The notes under the pieces: generated by a model
Databases searched by the model: none
What the model was told of the DNA's origin: nothing
The model's input: only the letters and a program-made list of their open reading frames with translations
Position numbers and translations under genes: made by a program
In this document: one piece after another, positions 1 through 10,674 of the stretch
Numbering within the stretch: position 1 is the stretch's first letter
How the letters are laid out: every line of letters starts with the position of its first letter
Source: Candidatus Absconditabacterales bacterium
Lineage (GTDB): Bacteria; Patescibacteria; JAEDAM01; Absconditabacterales; Absconditicoccaceae
Length of the DNA stretch: 10,674 nt
Assembly (NCBI GenBank): GCA_938010495.1
Contig: CALLUT010000170.1
Span: forward strand, 1-10,674
Direction: 5' to 3'

Positions 1-317
1 ACTAAGCGATCAAAAGGATTTCTTACAAAAGTAAAATAATAATAGTCTTTTGGAACAGTATTTGTAGGAATTCTATTCCATGACAAACGATGAACAGCAT
101 ACATCTTTTCTTTCTCACTTTGAAGTGCAAAATCTCATAAAACATCTTTTGAAAGTCACACCGTAAGGCAATTTTTTATCGAAGTATTTGCTACTTTACT
201 CAATGGTAAATAAGCAAGTTTTTTTTCTTCAAGCACTATAGCTTTTTCTTCGTAGTATGATGACGTAGAAAAAGTAGTTCTTATTATTTTAAACAAATCT
301 TTAGTAAGTCTATACAT
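1..317 (-). CDS. Sulfotransferase family 2-type protein, N-terminal 105 residues (cut by window edge)
   Basis: This is the beginning of a carbohydrate-type sulfotransferase (Sulfotransfer_2 fold), which would move sulfate from PAPS to a sugar hydroxyl. The visible part has L-S-K-V-A-N-T-S-I-K at about residues 39-48, the 5'-phosphosulfate loop, and F-T-F-V-R-N-P-F-D-R-L at about residues 95-105, the 3'-phosphate site. The protein runs off the window just after this motif. Glycines at about residues 54 and 61 are TGA. The ATG at 317 lies 4 bases after the TAA of the GT8-like gene, and an AT-rich leader without Shine-Dalgarno precedes it. The same motif order is found in the gene at 1223-1960, so the two are probably paralogues. 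The family call is firm; the acceptor is unknown. Confidence 0.9.
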
Positions 318-321
318 AATA

Positions 322-1230
322 TTATTTAAATAAATTTATTATTTTGGGTCGTACTATTTTTGAAAAATATGGATAAGATGTCACAATATGACTAAGCTCG
401 TATTCTTCAAATAATTTACCTAAATGTTCGTACTCATTAAATAATTTTTTTACAAGTGTTGATAATCTTTTTTGTCTCCAAATTCTATTGAACCTATGAT
501 AATGACAAAGTTTCATACTACTATTTCAAACTTTTTTAATATGTGCTGGAAAATTCAACTCTTCCGTAAGGGTATGTTTTTGTGCTTTTAACAAATCAAA
601 AACTACTGGCAATGCAATCTGGTCAAGCCATGGTCTTTTATTTTCAATACTCTCCTCTTTATCTATTTTTTTGCATACGGTATTCCACATTTTTCAGAAG
701 CGATAATCTGCAGAATAAATTACTCAAGCATTAAAATATTGAAGCATATCTTTTCATCAATATGTACTTTTCATTCGATTTTGAGAAACTGGTATATCAA
801 ATAATTTATAGACAGGATTTCGCATATGTTCATCTCCATTTGAAAAAGTTGGATTATCTGCTGGCTTTGCCATCACTCATGAATGAAACGTTTTGTATAT
901 ATCAAATGACTCCATAACAAGTATATCACTATCTAGTATTAATATTTCTTCATCTTCTTTGACCAATCAGGCCATCACTACTTTATTTCATATTTTATAT
1001 TCTGGATCTATATCGTTATGAACAGATAAACATTCTATATTAAGTTCTTTTATTAGGGTTTTTGAATATTGATTTAACTTATCAAATTCAGAATCAAGAT
1101 CTGGAATAGCAAATCTAATGTGTATTTCTTGTCATAAAAAATATCTAATTGAGCAAGCAAGCAAAAGAGATTTTGCTTCTAATTCTCAACTATGACAAAC
1201 AATATGTATAACTAGTTTTCTCTTACTCAT
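322..1230 (-). CDS. GT8-like glycosyltransferase (GT-A fold), 302 residues
   Basis: This is a putative nucleotide-sugar glycosyltransferase. The N-terminus M-S-K-R-K-L-V-I-H-I-V-C-H-S-G resembles the first Rossmann strand of GT-A enzymes. I-L-D-S-D-I-L-V with D100-S-D102 is the DxD metal and nucleotide-sugar site. Y-F-N-A-G-V-I-Y-S near residues 165-173 and W-L-D-Q-I-A-L-P around residue 200 match GT8-type enzymes. Ten of its twelve glycines are TGA, so a standard-code reading shows only the last 64 residues. Three CGA codons (residues 137, 152, 294) fit tryptophan, the first giving H-M-W-N-P-V-Y-K-L-F. The ATG at 1230 overlaps the stop of the upstream sulfotransferase gene by 8 bases. A GAAG lies upstream, one of only two weak ribosome-site candidates in the window. 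The sugar donor cannot be told. Confidence 0.85.
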
Positions 1231-1960
1231 GTATTTCTTCTGATATAAATTTATCTACTAATTTTTTATGTTGTTTAGTATATCAAAACACTTCAATATC
1301 TCTAGCATATCTTTTTGCTACTTTATCTACCATCTTTTTCGAAGTAAATCGTTTTGCATAATTGTCTCAGTTCTTAGATGTAACATTATATTGCCCCAAT
1401 GTTCATAAACCATGGTTTTCTTGAAAAGACATAAAATCATTATTGATTGATTCAAACTTTCCAACAAAATCAACAAGAGATTTTCAATGGGTATATACAC
1501 AAGAATACTGAGATTTAAAATGTCTATCAGCTAACCAGTCAGGTATATTACATACTTTATCAACAAAAGATTCAAAACTTTCATCCTTATTAAATATTCA
1601 AAAAAGATATTTTTCATATTCAAACTTCTTTCAAGGTATTTCTAAATCTTTTATAAATTTGCTTTTATATGCTGATACGAGACGGTCAAAAGGATTCCTC
1701 ACAAAAGTAAAAGTATATTTTGCATCATGAGGTTTAGATGTTGTAGTAATTATTCAAGATAAATTTTTTGAATGAATTGAATAATCATCCTTTACTTCTC
1801 ACTTTATAAACGTTTTCTTTATCGATGAGCACGCAACTTTTGATACAACCAAATAATATATTCACGGAAATTCTTTTGATCAAAAAAACTCTTTTGATTC
1901 CAAGGATCAAAATTTGAAGAGATTTTTTAAAAGGTATAGCATCCAAGACTTAATTTTCAT
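1223..1960 (-). CDS. Sulfotransferase family 2-type protein, 245 residues
   Basis: This is a complete PAPS-dependent carbohydrate sulfotransferase of the Sulfotransfer_2 type. V-S-K-V-A-C-S-S-I-K (K41) is the 5'-phosphosulfate loop, and F-V-R-N-P-F-D-R-L-V-S-A (R88) is the 3'-phosphate site. The C-terminal Y-A-R-D-I-E-V-F-G-Y is the typical end of the family. The length suits a small bacterial member. By hand count, eleven of fourteen glycines are TGA, while two tryptophans are TGG. One CGA at residue 204 gives Y-A-K-W-F-T-S-K-K if read as Trp, which fits relatives that often carry W just before this segment. The ATG at 1960 is 8 bases after the methyltransferase stop; an ATG at residue 7 is a possible alternative start. 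No signal peptide or membrane segment is seen, so it is probably cytosolic. The acceptor sugar is unknown. Confidence 0.93.
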
Positions 1961-1968
1961 AATAGTAT

Positions 1969-2895
1969 TTATTTTTTACTAATTACAAATGTTGCTTGAT
2001 CACTAGTTCATTCTTTGTTATATTCATCAGCAAGACGATCATAAAATTTTGGTATTTGTGGCTTATAGTTTCTTCACTCACGCAAAGGAATATCTTTTTG
2101 ATATAACTCACTAAAGAAAAACTGTTTAGAAGATCAGTTCCAAATAGTTTCTTTCAACTCAAATCAATTAAGTTCAAAAACCTTCTTAATTCACTCATAC
2201 GAATAAATAATTGTATGCCTAGGAGCATCAATTTGATATCGATTTTCTTGATATATATCAAAAATTTTACTTACAACTGGAACACTTACAATAATAATTC
2301 ACCTATCAGTCAGTTTTGATTGTAACGTTTCAAATACGTGGTTATGATCTACCATATGCTCCAAAACATGACTCAAATTGATAATATCGTATTTTGTATC
2401 ATTTTTCATATCAAATAGAGAACATGCATCAATTTTTATATTTCATTGATTGACACTACTATCCAAATATGGATCAACCCCATGTAAATTCTTATATCAA
2501 AATAGGTCCAACACCTTTAAAAATTTTCCATTCCCACATCACACATCCAATATTGCAATATCTTTCTTAGAAAGATTAGTAGATTTTATATAGTGTTGTA
2601 CTTGGTCTACTTGATCTGCCAAAAACGAATATTTAAATTTTGAATTTAGGTGAATTCAAAATATTTTTTTGATAGTATAGAGAAATGTAAACATATAATA
2701 GTATAGTTTACCGGTATTCATACTATAATAATTTTCATTCTGATAATATGTAGATATATCATCAATGTCAGTAACCAGAGAAAGTGTTGAACAGTCTCCA
2801 CAATGAAAATAGTCAAATTCTTTTCTCGTTCACATCATCATTTCCCTTACTAGGAAATTCTTTCAAGATGTTCAATTACATGATCTACAAGTCAT
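1969..2895 (-). CDS. Zinc-ribbon plus class I SAM methyltransferase, 308 residues
   Basis: This is a SAM-dependent methyltransferase, probably acting on a sugar or glycan. The N-terminus carries two CxxC pairs (C3/C6 and C32/C35) that look like a zinc ribbon. Then comes I-L-D-V-G-C-G-N-G-K-F, motif I at about residues 115-125, whose first glycine (119) is TGA and whose next two are GGG and GGA. N-L-S-H-V-L-E-H-M follows as motif II, then I-D-A-P-R-H-T. In this methyltransferase group a tryptophan usually precedes the D-x-P-R-H segment by several residues. Here that position, residue 219, is CGA, a key clue to the code. The ATG at 2895 is 21 bases after the glycosyltransferase stop, and the same TAA closes the frame upstream. 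The order zinc ribbon then methyltransferase recalls sugar C-methyltransferases, but the substrate is unproven. Confidence 0.9.
2239..2241 (-). other. CGA codon read as tryptophan (residue 219 of the methyltransferase)
   Basis: The codon sits in E-N-x-Y-Q-I-D-A-P-R-H. SAM methyltransferases with a D-x-P-R-H segment normally carry Trp at this place, so CGA=Trp fits better than Arg. The Arg of P-R-H itself is coded AGG, which shows that ordinary arginine codons are kept for true arginines. Confidence 0.7.
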
Positions 2896-2916
2896 TTTAA
2901 CAATTACAAATAAATA

Positions 2917-3798
2917 TTACTCTACTATGCCTTTAACAGCATCTGAAATACGTTTATTTTTTTCAAAAGTTTTTAAGTATTCTTGCTCTACATCATCTTT
3001 ATATCTTTTTTTCAAAAATTTGAAATGATAGTAAATATGTCCATATCGTTTCATTTCCATATGTTTAATTCTGAGATGTTCAAATCTATCTAACTTAAAA
3101 TACGTAGAATATTTATTTGGACGATAGAATCAATGATCTCATAAGAAACCCGGATACTTCAAATCTCATCTGAGTCAATATTCGTCTCATTTTTTAAGTA
3201 TATTATATCAAGAATACATCAAAAACACATCTTCTTTTATACCAAGTACTTTCTTTCTCAATTTTGCTTTCTTCACATCATCTAAAAATATAAAATCGTC
3301 ATCATCAATCTTAGTTACTATATTATAATTAGCTTTGGAAAAACTTCGATTATAATAATATGGTAATGAATGAAGAGAATATGCATACGTTGATCAATGC
3401 TTTCATCACTCATGACAATGTACTTCATATGGATAGTCAAAATATTTAATTTTATCTCAGTATTTCTCGATCAACTTATCAACGATCTCTACAGTATTAT
3501 CTGTTGAAAGATTATTTACAATTATCATCTCATCAACAATATCTATCCAGCTTTCAAGTACTAATTCCAAAAATTCTCAAGAATTATGAAGGCGTGCTAC
3601 TCAGGAAATACCTTCTTTTTTATTTGAATAATCTTGTTTGATATTCATTTCCTTTATTCATTCAATATTTTCTTGAATATCTCAAAAATCTTTTCTCTTT
3701 GTCTTTAAAAATCTTGATTTTAAAAATAAGAAAATTCTAATAAGAGTATGAAGCTTATGCTCTACTAACCATCATTGGAACCTTTTTGTTCTATTCAT
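2917..3798 (-). CDS. Glycosyltransferase family 2-like protein, 293 residues
   Basis: This is a GT-A fold glycosyltransferase. After a basic leader of about 60 residues comes G-V-A-R-L-H-N-S-G-E-F from residue 66, then M-I-I-V-N-N-L-S-T-D-N-T (N95), the nucleotide-binding region of family 2. K-I-D-D-D-D-F (D165-D168) is the DxD metal site. By hand count fifteen of twenty glycines are TGA, so no standard-code frame of useful length exists. CGA at residues 151 and 251 would be Trp; the first gives Y-Y-Y-N-W-S-F-S-K, matching the N-W common ahead of the DxD in related enzymes. The ATG at 3798 lies 3 bases after the sulfotransferase stop, so the two are surely co-transcribed. No transmembrane segment is evident. 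Donor and acceptor sugars are unknown. Confidence 0.88.
3346..3348 (-). other. CGA codon read as tryptophan (residue 151 of the GT2 protein)
   Basis: The context is Y-Y-Y-N-x-S-F-S-K, fourteen residues before the D-D-D-D metal site. Family 2 enzymes commonly have N-W at this place, so the codon supports CGA=Trp. Confidence 0.65.
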
Positions 3799-3801
3799 AT
3801 G

Positions 3802-4698
3802 TTATAGTGAATTTAAAAAGACATATTCATTTTTATATATTTTTTTAAGCATTTTTATTTCCGATTCTGGCACGACTGGTTTTGTTCATTTTGCAAAAAA
3901 TGATATTATTTTATTATATAAAGGTTTAATACTATCGTAAAATCGTGAAGGCAATATACTTGATATTTTTCAAATTTTCTTAATAATTTTTGAAACAATT
4001 CAATCAGAATAATACGTTACATTTGATTTAACTGAGACTAATTCTTCATACTCTACACCCAAATAGATTTGTATATCCTGCATAATTTTTTCAAAACTAT
4101 TCTTAAGATCAGTAGTACGCACGATCATGATATTATTTTTATCAAAATAGTCTGTATATCTTTTATAATTTTTTTGGTAATATGAAGAATCAAACAATAC
4201 TTTTTCTTGATACGTTAGTCAACCAACTTCAAATTCTTTTAAAAGTTGAGAAACCGATTTTTTTGTCATTCATAATCATTTTAACATCCAGTAATGAGAA
4301 ATCCACCTACGCACCGGATCACGAAAAAGGAATAGTATTTTTGTATTAGGATTGTTTTTAAAAATATTTGATGCTGCATCTTTAGAATGAAAATATCAAA
4401 TACTAGCGTCTCAAGTAATTTTTTTTGAATTTGATGAATACAATGTTTCGTATTTCTTTTTTTCTTCAATAATTCAAGCTCACACTACTTTTCAATTGTC
4501 AAAATGATTAGCAGTATTCTTCGCTAATAAAGCATAAAATCATGGGTCTTCTTTTTTTACTTCTTTATGAAAATCAGTATTAAAATAATTAATTTCTTTG
4601 ATTCATGGAAAGTAAATTTCTGAATGATTAATTAATATATCATATAAACTTGAGGATCAAGATTTTGCTACTCAAGCTATTACAAAATTTGGAAACAT
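3802..4698 (-). CDS. PAPS-dependent sulfotransferase (Sulfotransfer_1 type), 298 residues
   Basis: This is a cytosolic sulfotransferase of the heparan N-sulfotransferase-like group. The N-terminal F-V-I-A-G-V-A-K-S-G-S-S-S-L-Y (K12) is the 5'-phosphosulfate loop, followed by I-N-H-S-E-I-Y-F and K-E-I-N-Y-F. I-L-F-L-F-R-D-P-V-R-R-W-I-S-H-Y (R126, S134) is the 3'-phosphate site. Glycines in the loop are TGA, so a standard-code frame search breaks it into unrelated pieces. The ATG at 4698 shares one base with the TAA of the upstream SGNH-like gene (TAATG), which suggests translational coupling. One CGA, residue 252, lies in the C-terminal helix region L-P-S-x-F-Y-D, where R or W would both be possible. 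It shares its layout with the gene at 6443-7342, so both are probably paralogues acting on the same or related glycans. Confidence 0.94.
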
Positions 4699-5381
4699 TA
4701 AGTCACATTTAATTCTAAAAATTTTCTCAAAAATTTTGGGTTTACAATATGAACATGCCCATCACTATACTTATCATTAAGTAAGTTAATTTGATCCGCA
4801 TATTGATCAAAAACATCTACATAAATATATCCACTGCTCTTTGCTACAGCCTTTAATCTATCATTCATATAGGTAACATACTGTAAGCGTTCCTTATTTG
4901 AACCCAAAAAAGGATAGTTTGGATCATTGTATTTTCATTCGCTATTTGCAGGCGGGACAACGTTATATATACATACTTTAATATCTCAAAACGTTGAAAC
5001 ATTTTTTGATATTGTTTCCATATACTTATCAACCATAGCATTTATAACTTTTTTATATCACTTTTCTCTATGCTTATGAATATGACATCTGCAATCAATT
5101 TCTCAAAAACAAAAACATACTATATCTCAATTTTTTACTCAGTATTCAGGTTTAGATATATCTAGCAAATCTAATCAGTCTCTTCAAACACTATAAAGCA
5201 ACTTAGGTCATAATGTGTGTACAATTATATGTATTTTTTTAGAGATAATTCTATTCCATCAAAACTCTGCATGAGAATCTCAAAATGTATGAATAACAAC
5301 TCATCAAAATATAACTTTATAAACATGTTTTATGAGCCTGTACGTATAACCTCTTAAAAAATTATGTATTCTTGATATCAT
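4698..5381 (-). CDS. SGNH-hydrolase-like protein with GDSHA and GEIDC motifs, 227 residues
   Basis: This small protein belongs to a group seen in glycan loci with I-H-T-F-G-D-S-H-A near the start and F-G-E-I-D-C-R later. Here H-T-F-G-D-S-H-A carries the candidate nucleophile S36. F-G-E-I-D-C-R-C-H-I (G93-D96) stands where SGNH enzymes have G-x-N-D. D-G-H-V-H (D207, H209, H211) near the C-terminus could hold the Asp-His pair. SGNH proteins add or remove acyl groups on sugars, so deacetylation or acetylation of the glycan is the likely role, but no activity is shown. The ATG at 5381 overlaps the FkbM gene end by 20 bases. An AGAAG lies 3 bases before the start, weaker than a true Shine-Dalgarno. 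The C-terminal TAA shares one base with the next ATG. Confidence 0.82.
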
Positions 5382-6399
5382 TTACTTCTTTTGGATAAGC
5401 TAAAAGAACAACTCAAGCAAAAATATTAATTGGTTCAGATTGATATACTTCGAATGTGTATCATAAATTCCATGATTCTATCAATGGTTTTATACCAAAA
5501 AATTGTTGAGCATGATGATATATACTAATTACTAACACTGGCCTATCTTTTTCAATTACAGCCTTTGCTCATAAAAGACTTTCTTCTTCGTATCATTCAA
5601 CATCTCGTTTTATTAGTCACACTTTTTTTGATCAGTGATTTGCTATAACATAATGACCAATTGTTGTTATTTCAATCATGGCATCATTTTCTTTTTGATC
5701 TGTTCTTTGTCATGCGATTCTTACAGTTTCTCCTTCATCACCTCACATCATGTTTATAAATCAAGCAGATGATCACAATCACTTATTTACTTTATATACT
5801 TCTCATTGTGCATTATATTTTTGGAACCTCTTACAGAGCTTATTGTAATTCAATTCTACTGGTTCAAAAGCAACCACTCATCAGTGATTTGGTATATAAC
5901 GATCAAAAAATTCTGTCTCTTTTCAATCAAATGCTCAACAATCAAGAATAAGTTTATCTTTGCAATAGTCTAACACCCTATTATCATTTAAAACTTTATA
6001 TCATGTATGATGAAGTGAATTATGATTTTTATAATATATCATTCACTCATCATACATTTTTTTATATTTTTCTTGAGCCAAGACTATATCATTGTGAATA
6101 ATATTATTATCAGAAACTATTTTATATCTTGGTAAAATATCATTTATCAACTCAATACTGAATTGATCAAGACCAGCGATCAATCCTTCATAGTCTTGCT
6201 GATATGTATTTGATGCTTTGTGAGCGACAAATGAATCAGCAATTTCTTTTTCAAATGCAGATCTAACAAAATAATTTCACTTCTTTAAAGCAAAACGAAT
6301 AAACGAAGTGTTTTTTGATAACAAAAAACCTATCATAGCATATATAATACTACGAGGACGATTAACGATTACATTATATAATTTACTAAAAAAAGACAT
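5362..6399 (-). CDS. FkbM-type methyltransferase, 345 residues
   Basis: This is a SAM-dependent methyltransferase of the FkbM group, whose members O-methylate sugars or polyketide hydroxyls. A helical N-terminal part of about 140 residues precedes the core. The core has L-I-L-D-C-G-A-F-D-G-K-E-T (D153, motif I; both glycines are TGA), V-V-A-F-E-P-V-E-L-N (E-P, motif II) and D-V-E-G-Y-E (D266), the usual D-x-E-G-x-E signature. One CGA at residue 265 precedes the Asp and would be Trp, giving K-W-D-V-E-G. The start at 6399 is the first ATG after an in-frame TAG at 6448-6450. The 43-base gap to the upstream sulfotransferase is the widest in the window and very AT-rich, but I see no convincing promoter in it. 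Co-location with sulfotransferases suggests a glycan substrate. Confidence 0.9.
5605..5607 (-). other. CGA codon before the FkbM D-V-E-G motif (residue 265)
   Basis: The context is L-I-K-x-D-V-E-G-Y-E. Most FkbM proteins have a hydrophobic residue between K and D, so Trp fits better than Arg. This is weaker evidence than the other two codon sites near D-A-P-R-H and N-x-S-F-S-K. Confidence 0.5.
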
Positions 6400-6442
6400 A
6401 TAAGAATTGAATATATAAAAAATTGAAATACCATTTACGAAC

Positions 6443-7342
6443 TTATTCTATAATTTCTTTTAGTTTTAATTGATCTTCTTTATACAAATTAGATAGATAA
6501 TGCTCTTCATTCTTCGCTATTCACGCAGCCTTAGTAGTAAGTATTTTTTTGAAAAAGTCAATTGCTCTTCAAGAAAAGAGCTGCTTAAGAACTTTCTCTA
6601 ATCTCAATAAATTAATCAATTTCATGAATAATGGGAATCTAGGTAATCCTCCTGTATTTTTTCTTTCGAAATTTATATCGATATTTTTTTCAATATCTAG
6701 AAATGAGAATATTTGATCTAAAACTGATTTTGAATCTTCATAAAGACTCTTTGAATTTATTAGTAATATATTTTCTTTATCAAAGACTTCTAGATATCTC
6801 TTTACCTGCTCGTAGTACATTCAAAGTTCTACATACAAGTGTTTTTCTCCCCGGCCTCATTCTTTTTTATAATCTTCTTTTATTGCGGTAAGAAAATCTG
6901 CTCATGTGGTTCATCATCTTCTATCCATTTGCCAATGTGAATAAATTCTTTCAATTGGATCACGGAGTAAAATAATACACTTTGCATTTGGCAAGTTTTT
7001 TTTAATTTCTTTTGCCGCAACATTTGACCATAAATAACTCGTACTTGCTTCTCCCAACCAAGACACATCATCTCAATGATTTTCAAATAATTTTTCGTAA
7101 TGTTCTTGTTTTTTTACAAATGCGATATGCATTTCTTCCAACTCCTCTTTTGCAAAATACTCATCTAAGTTATGATCATTTTTAAATTTATATGTATCAT
7201 CAAATTTATTAGTATCAATGTCTTTAGAAAAAAAATTTGTTTCCTTAATTGGAGACATATAAATCTCAGGATGTTGATCCAAGTAATTATACAGTGAAGT
7301 GCTTCAGCTTTTTGCCGCTCATATTATGAAAAAATGTTTCAT
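6443..7342 (-). CDS. PAPS-dependent sulfotransferase (Sulfotransfer_1 type), 299 residues
   Basis: This is the clearest demonstration of the altered code in the window. The protein starts M-K-H-F-F-I-I-G-A-A-K-S-G-S-T-S-L-Y, the textbook 5'-phosphosulfate loop (K11), with both glycines coded TGA. D-Q-H-P-E-I-Y-M-S-P-I-K-E-T-N-F-F follows, then I-I-L-L-R-D-P-I-E-R-I-Y-S-H-W (R127, S135), the 3'-phosphate site, and E-L-G-M-Y-Y-E-Q-V-K-R-Y. It is a complete cytosolic sulfotransferase of normal length, using PAPS and probably a glycan acceptor. One CGG, residue 164, gives G-G-W-G-E-K-H if read as Trp. The ATG at 7342 is 7 bases past the stop of the GT4 gene, so both belong to one transcript. The acceptor is unknown. 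Confidence 0.96.
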
Positions 7343-7349
7343 GGGATTA

Positions 7350-8450
7350 TTAACTATAAATTTTTTCTATTTGAGTCTCTCGACTTAACACTGTATTTGC
7401 AAAATGTTTTCACTCTTTTCACATTTGTAATGATTTTTGTTTATCTGACAGCACTAATTTTATCATTTCCGCAAGGGCAGCAACATTTCATTTTTCAAAA
7501 ATATATCATGTTTGTCAATGAATTACAACGGTAGGCAGTTCTCAAACATCTGAAACAATTACTGTCCTCTCACATCAATACGAAATAGGAACTACTCAAG
7601 TAGCAGTAGCATCGTGATACGGCAGGATACAACACAATGATCTTGTGAAAATACTACTGAGTTCTTCATCAGGAATATGACGATTATCAACTTCTATATC
7701 TTTTCATAATAATTCGATAGATGATAAGTAAGGAGTAATATCTCATGATCATGCTATAAGTAACTTCACGTCAATATTATCTTTTTTAAGAATATCCATT
7801 GCTTGTAACAATACTTCCAATCACTTATAAGCAACTATTCTTCAAAAGAAAAGTATTGTGTTTTTTTCTGGATCTCTTTCCTGATAGTTATGAACTATAT
7901 CATTATAGTTTCAATGATGTATAGCTACTACCTTTTTTGAATCAGCACTAAACACAGCAATAACATCATTTCTTAATTTTTCTCAATGCACAATAACTTG
8001 ATTGGTAATTTTCACAAACCATTTTCTTATATATTTAAAAGGTTTCTTTAAAAGTCATACGTATTCTCACGAATGAGGAATGGGATCATGAAAAATCGTT
8101 CTATTTTTTATTTTACACGAATAGGTAATAAGAAGAAACACAAAAGATATAAGAGAATTTGAAGCAAACAACACTTCATCAATATTTCTTTTCTTTAAAT
8201 TTAGAAAAAAGGTTAGATAATTTTTCAAATTAACCAAATGATATAATGGTTTTTTTAAGCCAAAAATTCAATTTAATACAATATGGTTTTCATCTATAGA
8301 TGAAATGTTGGTAAACGAAGGCGTATATAAGTAAGTGTTTCACTTATTAACACCTTTCACTTTCATGTACATAGTCTTTCAATAATGTGCTCATCACCCA
8401 TCTACTGACAATGAAATAACACAAATATTTTTTTTCAAAACAAACGTCAT
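7350..8450 (-). CDS. GT4-type glycosyltransferase (GT-B fold), 366 residues
   Basis: This is a family 4 glycosyltransferase that would add a sugar from a nucleotide donor to the growing glycan on the cytosolic side. The C-terminal donor domain shows F-F-G-R-I-V-A-Y-K-G-L (R204, K209, G210), L-L-I-A-G-S-G-D (G234-D237) and Y-H-D-A-T-A-T-G-V-V-P (D280), then V-S-D-V-G-E-L-P and H-G-Q-T-G-Y-I-F. The usual E-x7-E is replaced by the D-A-T-x-T-G variant seen in one GT4 group. Glycines of F-F-G-R, A-G-S-G-D and Y-K-G are TGA. The final L-S-x-E-T-Q-I-E-K-I-Y has CGA at residue 357, where GT4 enzymes usually have Trp. The ATG at 8450 lies 8 bases after the membrane-protein stop. The sugar is not predictable. 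Confidence 0.92.
7380..7382 (-). other. CGA codon read as tryptophan (residue 357 of the GT4 protein)
   Basis: The context is L-S-x-E-T-Q-I-E-K-I-Y ten residues from the C-terminus. GT4 enzymes end with a helix that commonly begins F-S-W-E/D, so CGA=Trp restores the family pattern. Confidence 0.65.
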
Positions 8451-8458
8451 TACAAAAA

Positions 8459-10357
8459 TTATAATACAAAAACAACAAAACTATCGTTATCAATCAAAGT
8501 TCTATATCATGCATCGTACATAAATTCTAAAACTTCACTATTTCCTTCTTTCCATCAATTATTCCATGCATCTTTCTCTAAAATCATATACTCAGGACCA
8601 TAAGACAATACTATTTCATCTAATATATTTTTGTTTGGATTTTCAAAAAAACTTCGGGTTATTTCTGATCTAGTAACTGCATCAGTAAATCAAATCCTAT
8701 CAGATGATCTTAATTGAAACGTTCAAGATCAAATAGGCCTACGTTCACATTTATTTTGAGCCAAAGCGTTTAATCATATGGGATTAACTTGATAAAGATA
8801 AATCATAAACCTGTTAATCGTACCACATGGATGCAAGACGATTGTTTTATCAAAAAGAAGATCTCCTATTGAATGGAAATTTTCTCTATATTGAATCATT
8901 TTAGATTCTTGCCGATTTACTGTATCTTGTATAAAAGAGAATCTATCAATCACCAATCAAAAAAGACTAAACAACAATCATACAAAAATAATATTTAATC
9001 ACTTCCTTCATATATATTTAGAGATATACAATACTGCTAGTGGAACGATTGCAAACATATAAGAGAATTCTAAAAAATATCTATGAAAAAATCATCGCAT
9101 CCTTAGATAAAAAAATCAAATATTTGTAACCAATAAAAAAATAGCGAGAAAAAACAATCATTTTTTATGATTTTCTTTTATTATCAAAACTAATCATAGC
9201 AATCATGACACCCAAACGAAGAACGACCATATATAATTGACACGAATTGGAAATTCTGCAAAGAAAAATCTCACATCCTCAATAACATACCTTCATCAAA
9301 TTGCAAAGAAAAATACTATCAAACTAATAACAAAAAATAGCTTCACATGATTATTTCTAAGTCAGAAATTTATTTTAGATATATTATCAAATTTCAAGAA
9401 ATTACTCTTATACAAGATATGCAAGACTCACAAAAACACTCAAAAAACCACCATATGCAATCATAGCATAAAGTGTACTGATGCTAATCCAATAAATAGA
9501 AGTATTAATAATCCAGTTTTCTTTCGATCAAATCATTTTTTCACTTGATTATACCATAAAAGAATTATCAAGGTTTGAAAAATATAAGCATATGCTTTAG
9601 GGTCAGCATCATAATAAATTCATATAACTGGTATCACTGCCAACAATGCAATTAATCATCAATATTTACTCTCAGTTATCCTAGATCAAAGAACCCAAAA
9701 AATACTATAACTTGCTAATCAAAAAATCAATCTTGCTACATTATATGCTTCTATAGTATCTAGTTTGAAAAACAACTCTATACCATAGATTGCATAGTAT
9801 GGCAATGATGGATAATGCAATACAGAATTTGCATATATTGGATGTTGCATAAAAAAATTCCCAGATAATTTAACAAACTCTTCTAAAACAAAATAATGCA
9901 CCCAGGCATCAGGCGATGATCATGGACTTCAAAATCAAATATATAAAGATGCATAATTAATCAGAATCAAAAACAAAATTATTCATACTCAACATATTAT
10001 TACCAATTTATTGTTAGATTCTTTTTGATCTGTTTGAGAATAATGCTCTGCTCCAACAATATCCTTATCTTTTTTTAGAAAAAAGAAGGTATAGCATACA
10101 AATCAAAAGAAAAACCAAAATCATCAGTACAAGTAAAAATACACCACATATGCTGACAACTTAGGATCAATAAAGGTAAAAGAGAATATACAAACTAAAA
10201 GTAAACTAATCAAGTAAATTGAAAAAATCCTTCAAAAAGTCACTTTGCGGCTAGCAATAAATCCTCATATAAATATAGACAAAAACAACAATATATTAGA
10301 ATATAATTGGTTATTAATTGTTCTTGCAGGAATTGATTGTAAGATAAAGTTTAACAT
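8459..10357 (-). CDS. Multi-pass GT-C-like membrane glycosyltransferase, 632 residues
   Basis: This large membrane protein probably transfers a sugar from a lipid-linked donor on the outer face of the cytoplasmic membrane. About 470 residues are rich in hydrophobic segments (for example about 21-35, 43-62, 69-93 and 117-134), followed by a soluble tail of about 160 residues ending F-V-V-F-V-L. After the fourth segment comes G-S-S-P-D-A-W-V-H-Y-F with D150 and H154, resembling the acidic first-loop motif of GT-C enzymes; Y-D-A-D-P-K follows near residue 250. Four segments before that motif is unusual, since GT-C proteins normally have one. A standard-code search sees only two 60-residue fragments of it. 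CGA at residues 278, 421 and 568 and CGG at 482 would be Trp. The ATG at 10357 follows the upstream stop by 8 bases. The exact family is not identified. Confidence 0.8.
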
Positions 10358-10365
10358 ATGTTTTA

Positions 10366-10674
10366 TTAATGAGTAGAATTACCTAATAAATTTTCATTTA
10401 TAATAGCGTCATAAATATATTCTCAAATAATTTCGTGTCACTGGTGGTTCCAATGTCATTTTTTGTTTTGCACCCAACTATAAACATCTATGCCTTGATT
10501 TGAAGCTTCCGCAATACCTTTATACAATTGAATATAGTTTTTTTCTTTTTGATTTAACAATATTTCTAATCATGTTATTCATTGCCTTAAAACAAATACT
10601 ATATTATCACTAGATTCATAAAGGGTTTCTATTATTGTAACATGTTTATCAGACAAGTCATAATCAACTACATC
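10366..10674 (-). CDS. C-terminal 102 residues of an SGNH-hydrolase-like protein (5' end outside window)
   Basis: Only the end of this gene is present. It contains S-W-V-Q-N-K-K-G-H-W-N-H-Q-G-H-E-I-I, a pattern like the D/G-x-H-W-N-x-x-G-H block that holds the catalytic His in AlgJ/AlgX-like and other SGNH acyltransferases or esterases. Before it lie D-V-V-D-Y-D and helical segments. Several glycines, including both in G-H-W-N-H-Q-G-H, are TGA, while both Trp are TGG. Such proteins often modify glycans with acetyl groups and can sit beside an MBOAT membrane protein, which would have to lie upstream of the window. It stops 8 bases before the membrane glycosyltransferase starts, in line with one operon. 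The assignment rests on this single block. Confidence 0.6.

Follow-up and report, generated by a model that had tools for sequence, protein, structure and literature searches.

The subject of this study is a 10,674-base stretch of DNA (the window, meaning the whole stretch; contig CALLUT010000170.1 of assembly GCA_938010495.1) from a Candidatus Absconditabacterales bacterium. The stretch appears to be a complete contig and carries four predicted sulfotransferase genes interleaved with glycosyltransferase genes. Judging from its sequence and that of its relatives, it probably belongs to an Absconditabacteria operon for making a cell-surface glycan and attaching sulfate to it at several positions. 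The 12 genes of the window all lie on the minus strand when TGA is read as glycine, and are separated by 11 intergenic gaps of -20 to +43 bases; under the standard code, the longest frame of the region among the open reading frames (ORFs) listed is no more than 83 amino acids. Three of the sulfotransferase genes are whole and one is cut at the contig end. All four products exceed curated Pfam cut-offs and, since replacing every TGA by X leaves each of them above the threshold of its top-scoring Pfam family, these calls are independent of the genetic code. A first-pass annotation had placed the four genes at 1-317, 1223-1960, 3802-4698 and 6443-7342, and that is where they are found, on the minus strand and in frames open only with TGA as glycine. 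It had described the last two as Sulfotransfer_1 enzymes; they are indeed sulfotransferases, but their best Pfam family is Sulfotransfer_3 (PF13469), and we refer to this pair as ST3 and to the Sulfotransfer_2 pair as ST2.

That these genes function in sulfation, as the first-pass annotation had proposed, is supported by related genomes, in which a pathway for the sulfuryl donor 3'-phosphoadenosine-5'-phosphosulfate (PAPS) lies beside homologous sulfotransferases and no assimilatory enzymes were found. In genome G207, a cluster within 8.6 kb (L088 8476-17097) has the order ST3, ST2, Polysacc_synt flippase, CysC, CysD, CysN, CysQ; its ST3 is 40.5% identical to the product of 6443-7342 and the adjoining ST2 46.5% identical to that of 1223-1960, while all four Cys proteins (4/4) exceed the cut-offs of their NCBIfam models. 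Genome G138 carries, on a 5.2-kb contig, a cut flippase gene followed by cysC, cysD, cysN and cysQ in the same order as in G207, at identities of 75% (CysC), 83% (CysD), 79% (CysN) and 50% (CysQ); its ST2 gene lies on another contig beside an FkbM methyltransferase and a family 2 glycosyltransferase (GT2), a mix that is also present in the window. In the five genomes searched, PAPS_reduct picks out nothing but cysD in G207 and in G138, and the sulfite reductase profile NIR_SIR has no match at all; named controls were positive in 14/14 cases for PAPS_reduct and 11/14 for NIR_SIR. Because cysC, cysD, cysN and cysQ lie beside a flippase gene in both genomes, and in G207 also in one cluster with homologues of two window sulfotransferases, and because no assimilatory enzymes were found in G207 or G138, PAPS in these two genomes most likely serves sulfation and not assimilation. 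A SulP-type permease exceeds its cut-off in both, but does so in 11 of the 49 genomes of the order overall.

A comparable island occurs outside the SR1 order in genome G191, which also uses code 25 (L091 9688-14402). Here ST3, a flippase, adenosine-5'-phosphosulfate (APS) kinase, ATP sulfurylase and a CysQ-like protein are encoded in a row, the last scoring 220.9 bits against TIGR01331, under the cut-off of 228.8. The ATP sulfurylase is a single-chain enzyme that stands in place of CysD/CysN and, because its type differs, the island points to a separate acquisition.

These relatives come from a survey at two levels, the order (49 genomes) and the class (192 genomes, a subset of a larger set), both chosen via the SR1 record L042 of genome G001; the genomes are drafts of unreported completeness, and absence of a gene from any of them is therefore weak evidence. 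Searching with a DNA pattern in which the GHVDHGK motif contains TGA gave 43 loci, of which 30 have Gracilibacteria, Absconditabacteria or SR1 in their titles; in loci L112-L121 the ORF calls are mechanical, with some in the wrong frame in GC-rich contigs, and were used for BLAST matches alone. Sulfated surface glycans had been noted beforehand as little known in Patescibacteria, and homologous sulfotransferases do occur in other Absconditabacteria genomes and are scarce: Sulfotransfer_2 exceeds its cut-off in 2/49 order genomes (G207, with two copies, and G138) and Sulfotransfer_3 in 1/49 (G207). APS kinase is found in the same two genomes as Sulfotransfer_2 (2/49; Fisher 8.5e-4). Across the class, 17 genomes have a sulfotransferase over cut-off, 18 have an APS kinase match and 13 have both (Fisher 3.6e-13). 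Partial APS kinase matches, which cover roughly positions 4-97 of the 152-position profile in 10 class genomes and 4-122 in G170, may be other P-loop kinases, and for this reason we also give the strict count: a full-length match in seven genomes, all seven of which have a sulfotransferase (Fisher 1.1e-8). In the 20 code-25 genomes behind the loci found by the DNA pattern, PF13469 has a single match (G002, 2.1e-4) and none over cut-off. Sub-cut-off matches were left uncounted, both in the order (G205 and G157 for PF03567, G002 for PF13469) and in the class (six genomes for PF13469, three for PF03567).

The residues that bind PAPS are well preserved in the window enzymes. In the product of 6443-7342, the 5'-phosphosulfate loop has G8, K11 and G13, which are conserved in 47/49, 48/49 and 46/49 homologues respectively (alignment A1), and the 3'-phosphate-binding arginine and serine are R127 (49/49) and S135 (48/49); the product of 3802-4698 has the same loop glycines and lysine and keeps both the arginine and the serine. 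E98 of 6443-7342 is glutamate in 49/49 homologues and aligns with the glutamate of the NDST 'EKS' motif, which in enzymes of the NDST/3-OST kind is catalytic. The product of 3802-4698 has aspartate in this column, a substitution common to it and its 57% identical relative P0246; a protein search with it returned, beyond its own copy, two relatives, P0246 and P0247 (26%), and from these sequences it would appear to form a sulfotransferase subfamily of its own, with aspartate at the catalytic-base column. For Sulfotransfer_2, the features set out in a 2024 review are a 5'-phosphosulfate-binding lysine and a PxxRxxS motif (PMC11625862); the product of 1223-1960 has both, as K41 and P90..R93..S96. 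That of 1-317 has the K, S, H and FVRNPF.R residues as far as its sequence reaches, including the lysine and P..R, while its 3'-phosphate-binding serine is lost at the contig end. The earlier statement that all visible PAPS motifs are intact thus holds for the cofactor motifs, but not for the catalytic-base column of 3802-4698, nor for the full motif of 1-317, which ends before its serine.

The nature of the acceptor is the point at which another explanation must be considered, namely that the acceptors are small molecules, lipids or protein tyrosines and that the location of the sulfotransferases in a glycan operon is coincidental. We regard this as improbable. The families do include small-molecule enzymes, going by PDB names, and further down the Foldseek ranking for the ST3 model there are tyrosylprotein sulfotransferases and SULTs. 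At the top of that ranking, obtained with an AlphaFold model of the 6443-7342 product (predicted local distance difference test, pLDDT, 94.6), stand 3rnl, NDST1 and HS3ST3. An ST3 profile likewise matches 3rnl at 2.4e-79, NDST at 1.6e-24 and HS3ST (3-OST) at 4e-20, against 1.8e-6 at best for cytosolic SULTs, and the 6443-7342 sequence by itself matches 3rnl at 8.6e-25 and NDST at 1.5e-9. The Alicyclobacillus protein 3rnl and the heparan sulfate NDST and 3-OST enzymes resemble the ST3 type in fold and cofactor motifs, at a distance: the model is 27% identical to 3rnl, for which the PDB listing gives only the generic name 'Sulfotransferase', and 18 to 19% identical to NDST1. Among solved structures, the best characterised ones related to the ST3 type are those of glycan sulfotransferases (NDST, HS3ST), by sequence as well as by predicted fold, and small-molecule SULTs rank behind them. 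This weakens the small-molecule explanation, as does the position of the genes among glycosyltransferases; in G207, G138 and G191 too, enzymes of these families are encoded near a flippase or a glycosyltransferase.

Several observations weigh against a sulfated surface glycan, and the first concern ST2. The AlphaFold model of the 1223-1960 product (pLDDT 92.6) has heparan sulfate 6-O-sulfotransferase (HS6ST) first in Foldseek, at an E of only 0.0099, and by VIA Z (7 to 8.5) heparan sulfate 2-O/6-O enzymes are tied with small-molecule sulfotransferases, both plant SOTs and animal SULTs; predicted ST2 structures thus appear not to decide between glycan and small molecule, and more generally membership of a sulfotransferase family does not fix the acceptor. 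The 1223-1960 sequence has no solved relative in the PDB at E up to 1; an alignment against the PDB gave one entry at 0.097, which is unrelated. The aspartate of 3802-4698 also counts on this side, replacing as it does a glutamate found in every A1 homologue and in NDST. No PAPS synthesis gene (ATP sulfurylase, APS kinase, CysQ) lies in the 10.7-kb window contig, and the PAPS genes of the window's own genome are presumed from its relatives, its flippase and polymerase likewise being putative. The association across the class is also imperfect: 4/17 sulfotransferase genomes lack an APS kinase match and 10/17 lack a full-length one, while 5/18 APS kinase genomes lack a sulfotransferase over cut-off, and gene absences of this kind suffer from the draft state of the genomes.

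The most economical account nonetheless seems to be that PAPS is dedicated to the making of a sulfated surface glycan. From the 5' end of the stretch, the genes are as follows.

1..317, minus strand: sulfotransferase, Sulfotransfer_2 type, 105 amino acids visible, C-terminal part lost at the contig end (Pfam PF03567, 1.4e-8)
322..1230, minus strand: probable glycosyltransferase, GT-A/GT8-like (DSD motif by eye)
1223..1960, minus strand: sulfotransferase, Sulfotransfer_2 type, 245 amino acids, whole (Pfam PF03567, 4.2e-21)
1969..2895, minus strand: S-adenosylmethionine-dependent class I methyltransferase, Methyltransf_23 (Pfam PF13489, 7.8e-19)
2917..3798, minus strand: glycosyltransferase family 2, GT2 (Pfam PF00535, 1.5e-7)
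3802..4698, minus strand: sulfotransferase, Sulfotransfer_3/1 type, 298 amino acids (Sulfotransfer_3, 1.3e-10; Sulfotransfer_1, 7.9e-10; PDB 3rnl, 8e-13)
4698..5381, minus strand: GDSL/SGNH-like hydrolase, a weak match (Pfam PF13472, 2.4e-4, below cut-off)
5362..6399, minus strand: FkbM-family methyltransferase (Pfam PF05050, 7.6e-13; NCBIfam fkbM_fam, 1.4e-19, over cut-off)
6443..7342, minus strand: sulfotransferase, Sulfotransfer_3/1 type, 299 amino acids, whole (Sulfotransfer_3, 2.4e-17; Sulfotransfer_1, 5.7e-14)
7350..8450, minus strand: glycosyltransferase group 1, GT4 (Pfam PF00534, 5.5e-24)
8459..10357, minus strand: hydrophobic multi-span membrane protein, 632 amino acids (DUF6541, 0.037, weak and below cut-off)
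10366..10674, minus strand: C-terminal fragment of another protein, truncated at the contig end and unassigned (no Pfam match)

The Pfam content of these genes is in keeping with the glycan operon first proposed. The sulfotransferases had been described as interleaved with glycosyltransferases; these are present, but the neighbours also include two methyltransferases, the weak GDSL-like protein, the large membrane protein and two products that match no Pfam family. One of the latter, the 322-1230 product, has no PDB match either, and is 22% identical over 296 columns (5.7e-11) to a 606-amino acid protein from a sulfotransferase locus in genome G111. The GDSL-like product matches lysophospholipase L1-like entries in the PDB at E 0.055 and 0.065. 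The membrane protein is possibly a GT-C glycosyltransferase or a polymerase, and has no homologue in the 49 genomes of the order, which by itself is uninformative.

In the mechanism that we propose, ATP sulfurylase (CysD/CysN) and APS kinase (CysC) would convert sulfate to PAPS. In the cytosol, each of the four sulfotransferases would then transfer the sulfuryl group of PAPS to an acceptor position of its own, on sugar hydroxyls or amines of a lipid-linked glycan under assembly by glycosyltransferases that include the GT2 and the GT4. Further caps would come from methyltransferases, CysQ would remove the product 3'-phosphoadenosine-5'-phosphate (PAP), and a Wzx-type flippase would export the glycan. 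The identity of the acceptor, sulfation before export, the location at the surface and the biological role are what we infer. There is a narrower form of this scheme, in which the glycan that is sulfated belongs to a glycoprotein (N- or O-linked, in an S-layer) instead of being a capsule or lipid-anchored polysaccharide; we give it a less than even chance. Such an arrangement is known from Halobacterium, where sulfotransferases are described as modifying an N-linked tetrasaccharide (PMC11980604), and a Pfam scan recognised no capsule export gene in the window; the same scan recognised no oligosaccharyltransferase there, and the Wzx-type flippase in the clusters of the relatives fits both forms.

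The Absconditabacteria origin of the window agrees with both its genetic code and its codon use. TGA supplies 172 of the 221 glycine codons of the 12 genes, including those for G8 and G13 of 6443-7342 in the conserved phosphosulfate loop. According to Shulgina and Eddy (eLife.71402), UGA as glycine is common to Absconditabacteria and Gracilibacteria, and in the former CGA and CGG encode tryptophan besides. Deep alignments allowed two of the 15 such codons in the window to be scored: the column of CGG164 in 6443-7342 has W in 39/49 and F in 7/49 homologues, while that of CGA204 in 1223-1960 has Y in 38/49, F in 6/49, W in one and R in one, and so is a tyrosine and not a tryptophan column. Of 15 CGA/CGG codons scored in G207 and G138 (CysN and CysD with three homologues each; ST2 and ST3 with ten each), eight are opposite tryptophan in all homologues, four opposite Tyr/Phe or Tyr/Trp and three opposite other residues; none is mainly arginine. 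On the codons scored, CGA/CGG would thus encode an aromatic residue in the window, in line with the published Absconditabacteria code, and most likely tryptophan, alongside TGA as glycine. NCBI table 25 alone would then mistranslate the contig, which has 15 CGA/CGG codons (1-10674). Arginine codon use (CGA at 11% of arginine codons) is like that of G207, G138 and most other SR1-order loci, and unlike that of most other code-25 loci, the exceptions including L018, L021, L028 and L032. Locus L022 1-4339, titled Campylobacterales, has a TGA-for-glycine translation-factor motif and code-25-like codon use in its open frames, and is possibly a mis-binned Gracilibacteria contig.

With respect to the origin of the four enzymes, which the first-pass annotation had left between duplication and transfer, they are not recent duplicates: the two ST3 sequences are 31% identical to each other and the two ST2 sequences 36%. 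In quick tree searches, with Shimodaira-Hasegawa-like approximate likelihood ratio test (SH-aLRT) values as the only support, 6443-7342 groups with the ST3 of G207 and P0006 (97), 3802-4698 groups with P0246 (99), and both ST2 genes group with G207, G138 and P0129 (93, not starred); 1-317 groups with the ST2 of G207 (83) on 35% of columns. The second ST2 of G207 and the ST3 of G191 fall outside these clades on long branches. P0006, P0246 and P0129 are database translations that have tryptophan at glycine codons, which is why their branches are longer; tryptophan occupies conserved glycine columns in P0006 and P0246, and similarly by eye in P0129, as expected for code-25 genes translated with TGA as tryptophan. 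Against purely vertical descent, the 1223-1960 product is 47% identical to a Geobacillus protein and that of 6443-7342 is 46% identical to a Desulfurobacterium protein, so that standard-code proteins are as close as those of the lineage itself. Given high identity to standard-code proteins, grouping with code-25 sequences and adaptation to the code, the genes are probably old acquisitions. As for a viral origin, P0003 in viral_contigs was considered, with nine pattern matches, none of which was confirmed.

The same evidence bears on whether the genes could be recent imports or decaying remnants without function. Their rarity in the order might suggest as much, as might the aspartate of 3802-4698 and the Geobacillus protein that is as close by plain identity as anything in the lineage. 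However, the frames are whole under the organism's code, TGA predominates among glycine codons and stands at conserved glycine positions, the sequences group with others of code 25, and the aspartate recurs in P0246; a loss of function or recent arrival is therefore very improbable.

Two further features of G207 deserve mention. Its second Sulfotransfer_2 gene (L089 9715-10386) is divergent, 28% identical to that of the window with serine for the conserved His63, and adjoins a methyltransferase gene, with murI-like and Mur ligase-like genes nearby by eye. Upstream of the sulfated-glycan region, L088 539-3012 encodes S-adenosylmethionine synthetase and adenosylhomocysteinase, as if methyl donor supply were tied to that region.

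The known members of this lineage are small bacteria that attach to hosts or prey on them. That genomes of about 1 Mb, with no assimilatory sulfate reduction evident in them, encode sulfate activation next to sulfotransferases implies that a sulfated coat would be worth its cost there. The fullest version of our proposal, which we put at about even chances, is that a small, host-attached or predatory and doubly recoded lineage keeps cysCDNQ solely to attach sulfate esters of several kinds to a surface glycan, that the G207/G138 and G191 islands, with their different ATP sulfurylases, were assembled independently, and that the coat was selected for host contact or phage protection. The finding of these genes proposes for Absconditabacteria a surface chemistry that can be put to the test, and would also make the lineage a source of glycan sulfotransferases. 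Recoding of TGA and CGA/CGG breaks or garbles such genes in standard annotation, and this may be why they went unnoticed.

Sulfated polysaccharides are reported from six bacterial genera in the 2024 review (PMC11625862) and from many cyanobacteria in a 2026 paper (PMC13125312). Among the papers listed in our literature searches, judged by title and the beginning of the abstract and with the 'sulphotransferase' spelling and subscription journals outside their scope, none deals with sulfotransferases of these bacteria. The kind of locus is already known, since the surface polysaccharide locus of Cobetia marina is similar in make-up to that proposed here: its sulfated capsular polysaccharide cluster is described as holding glycosyltransferases, a sulfotransferase, cysN/cysC, cysD, cysQ and a sulfate permease (PMC11766843). 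In that marine organism cysN and cysC are fused and export is by KpsSC and an ABC transporter, whereas G207 and G138 have separate cysC and cysN and a Wzx-type flippase; the window, in turn, has four sulfotransferases of two types, in a recoded lineage whose drafts are listed at 0.6 to 1.6 Mb. In Halobacterium salinarum two sulfotransferases similarly decorate a surface glycan, although that is an archaeal N-linked tetrasaccharide demonstrated by experiment, and synechan/xss is likewise a bacterial sulfated exopolysaccharide made by one gene set, but cyanobacterial and with its product demonstrated (PMC11980604 and PMC13125312, respectively), whereas for the window such a product is predicted from the genes. 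Absconditabacteria thus look like a new lineage for sulfated-glycan systems that are known from other bacteria.

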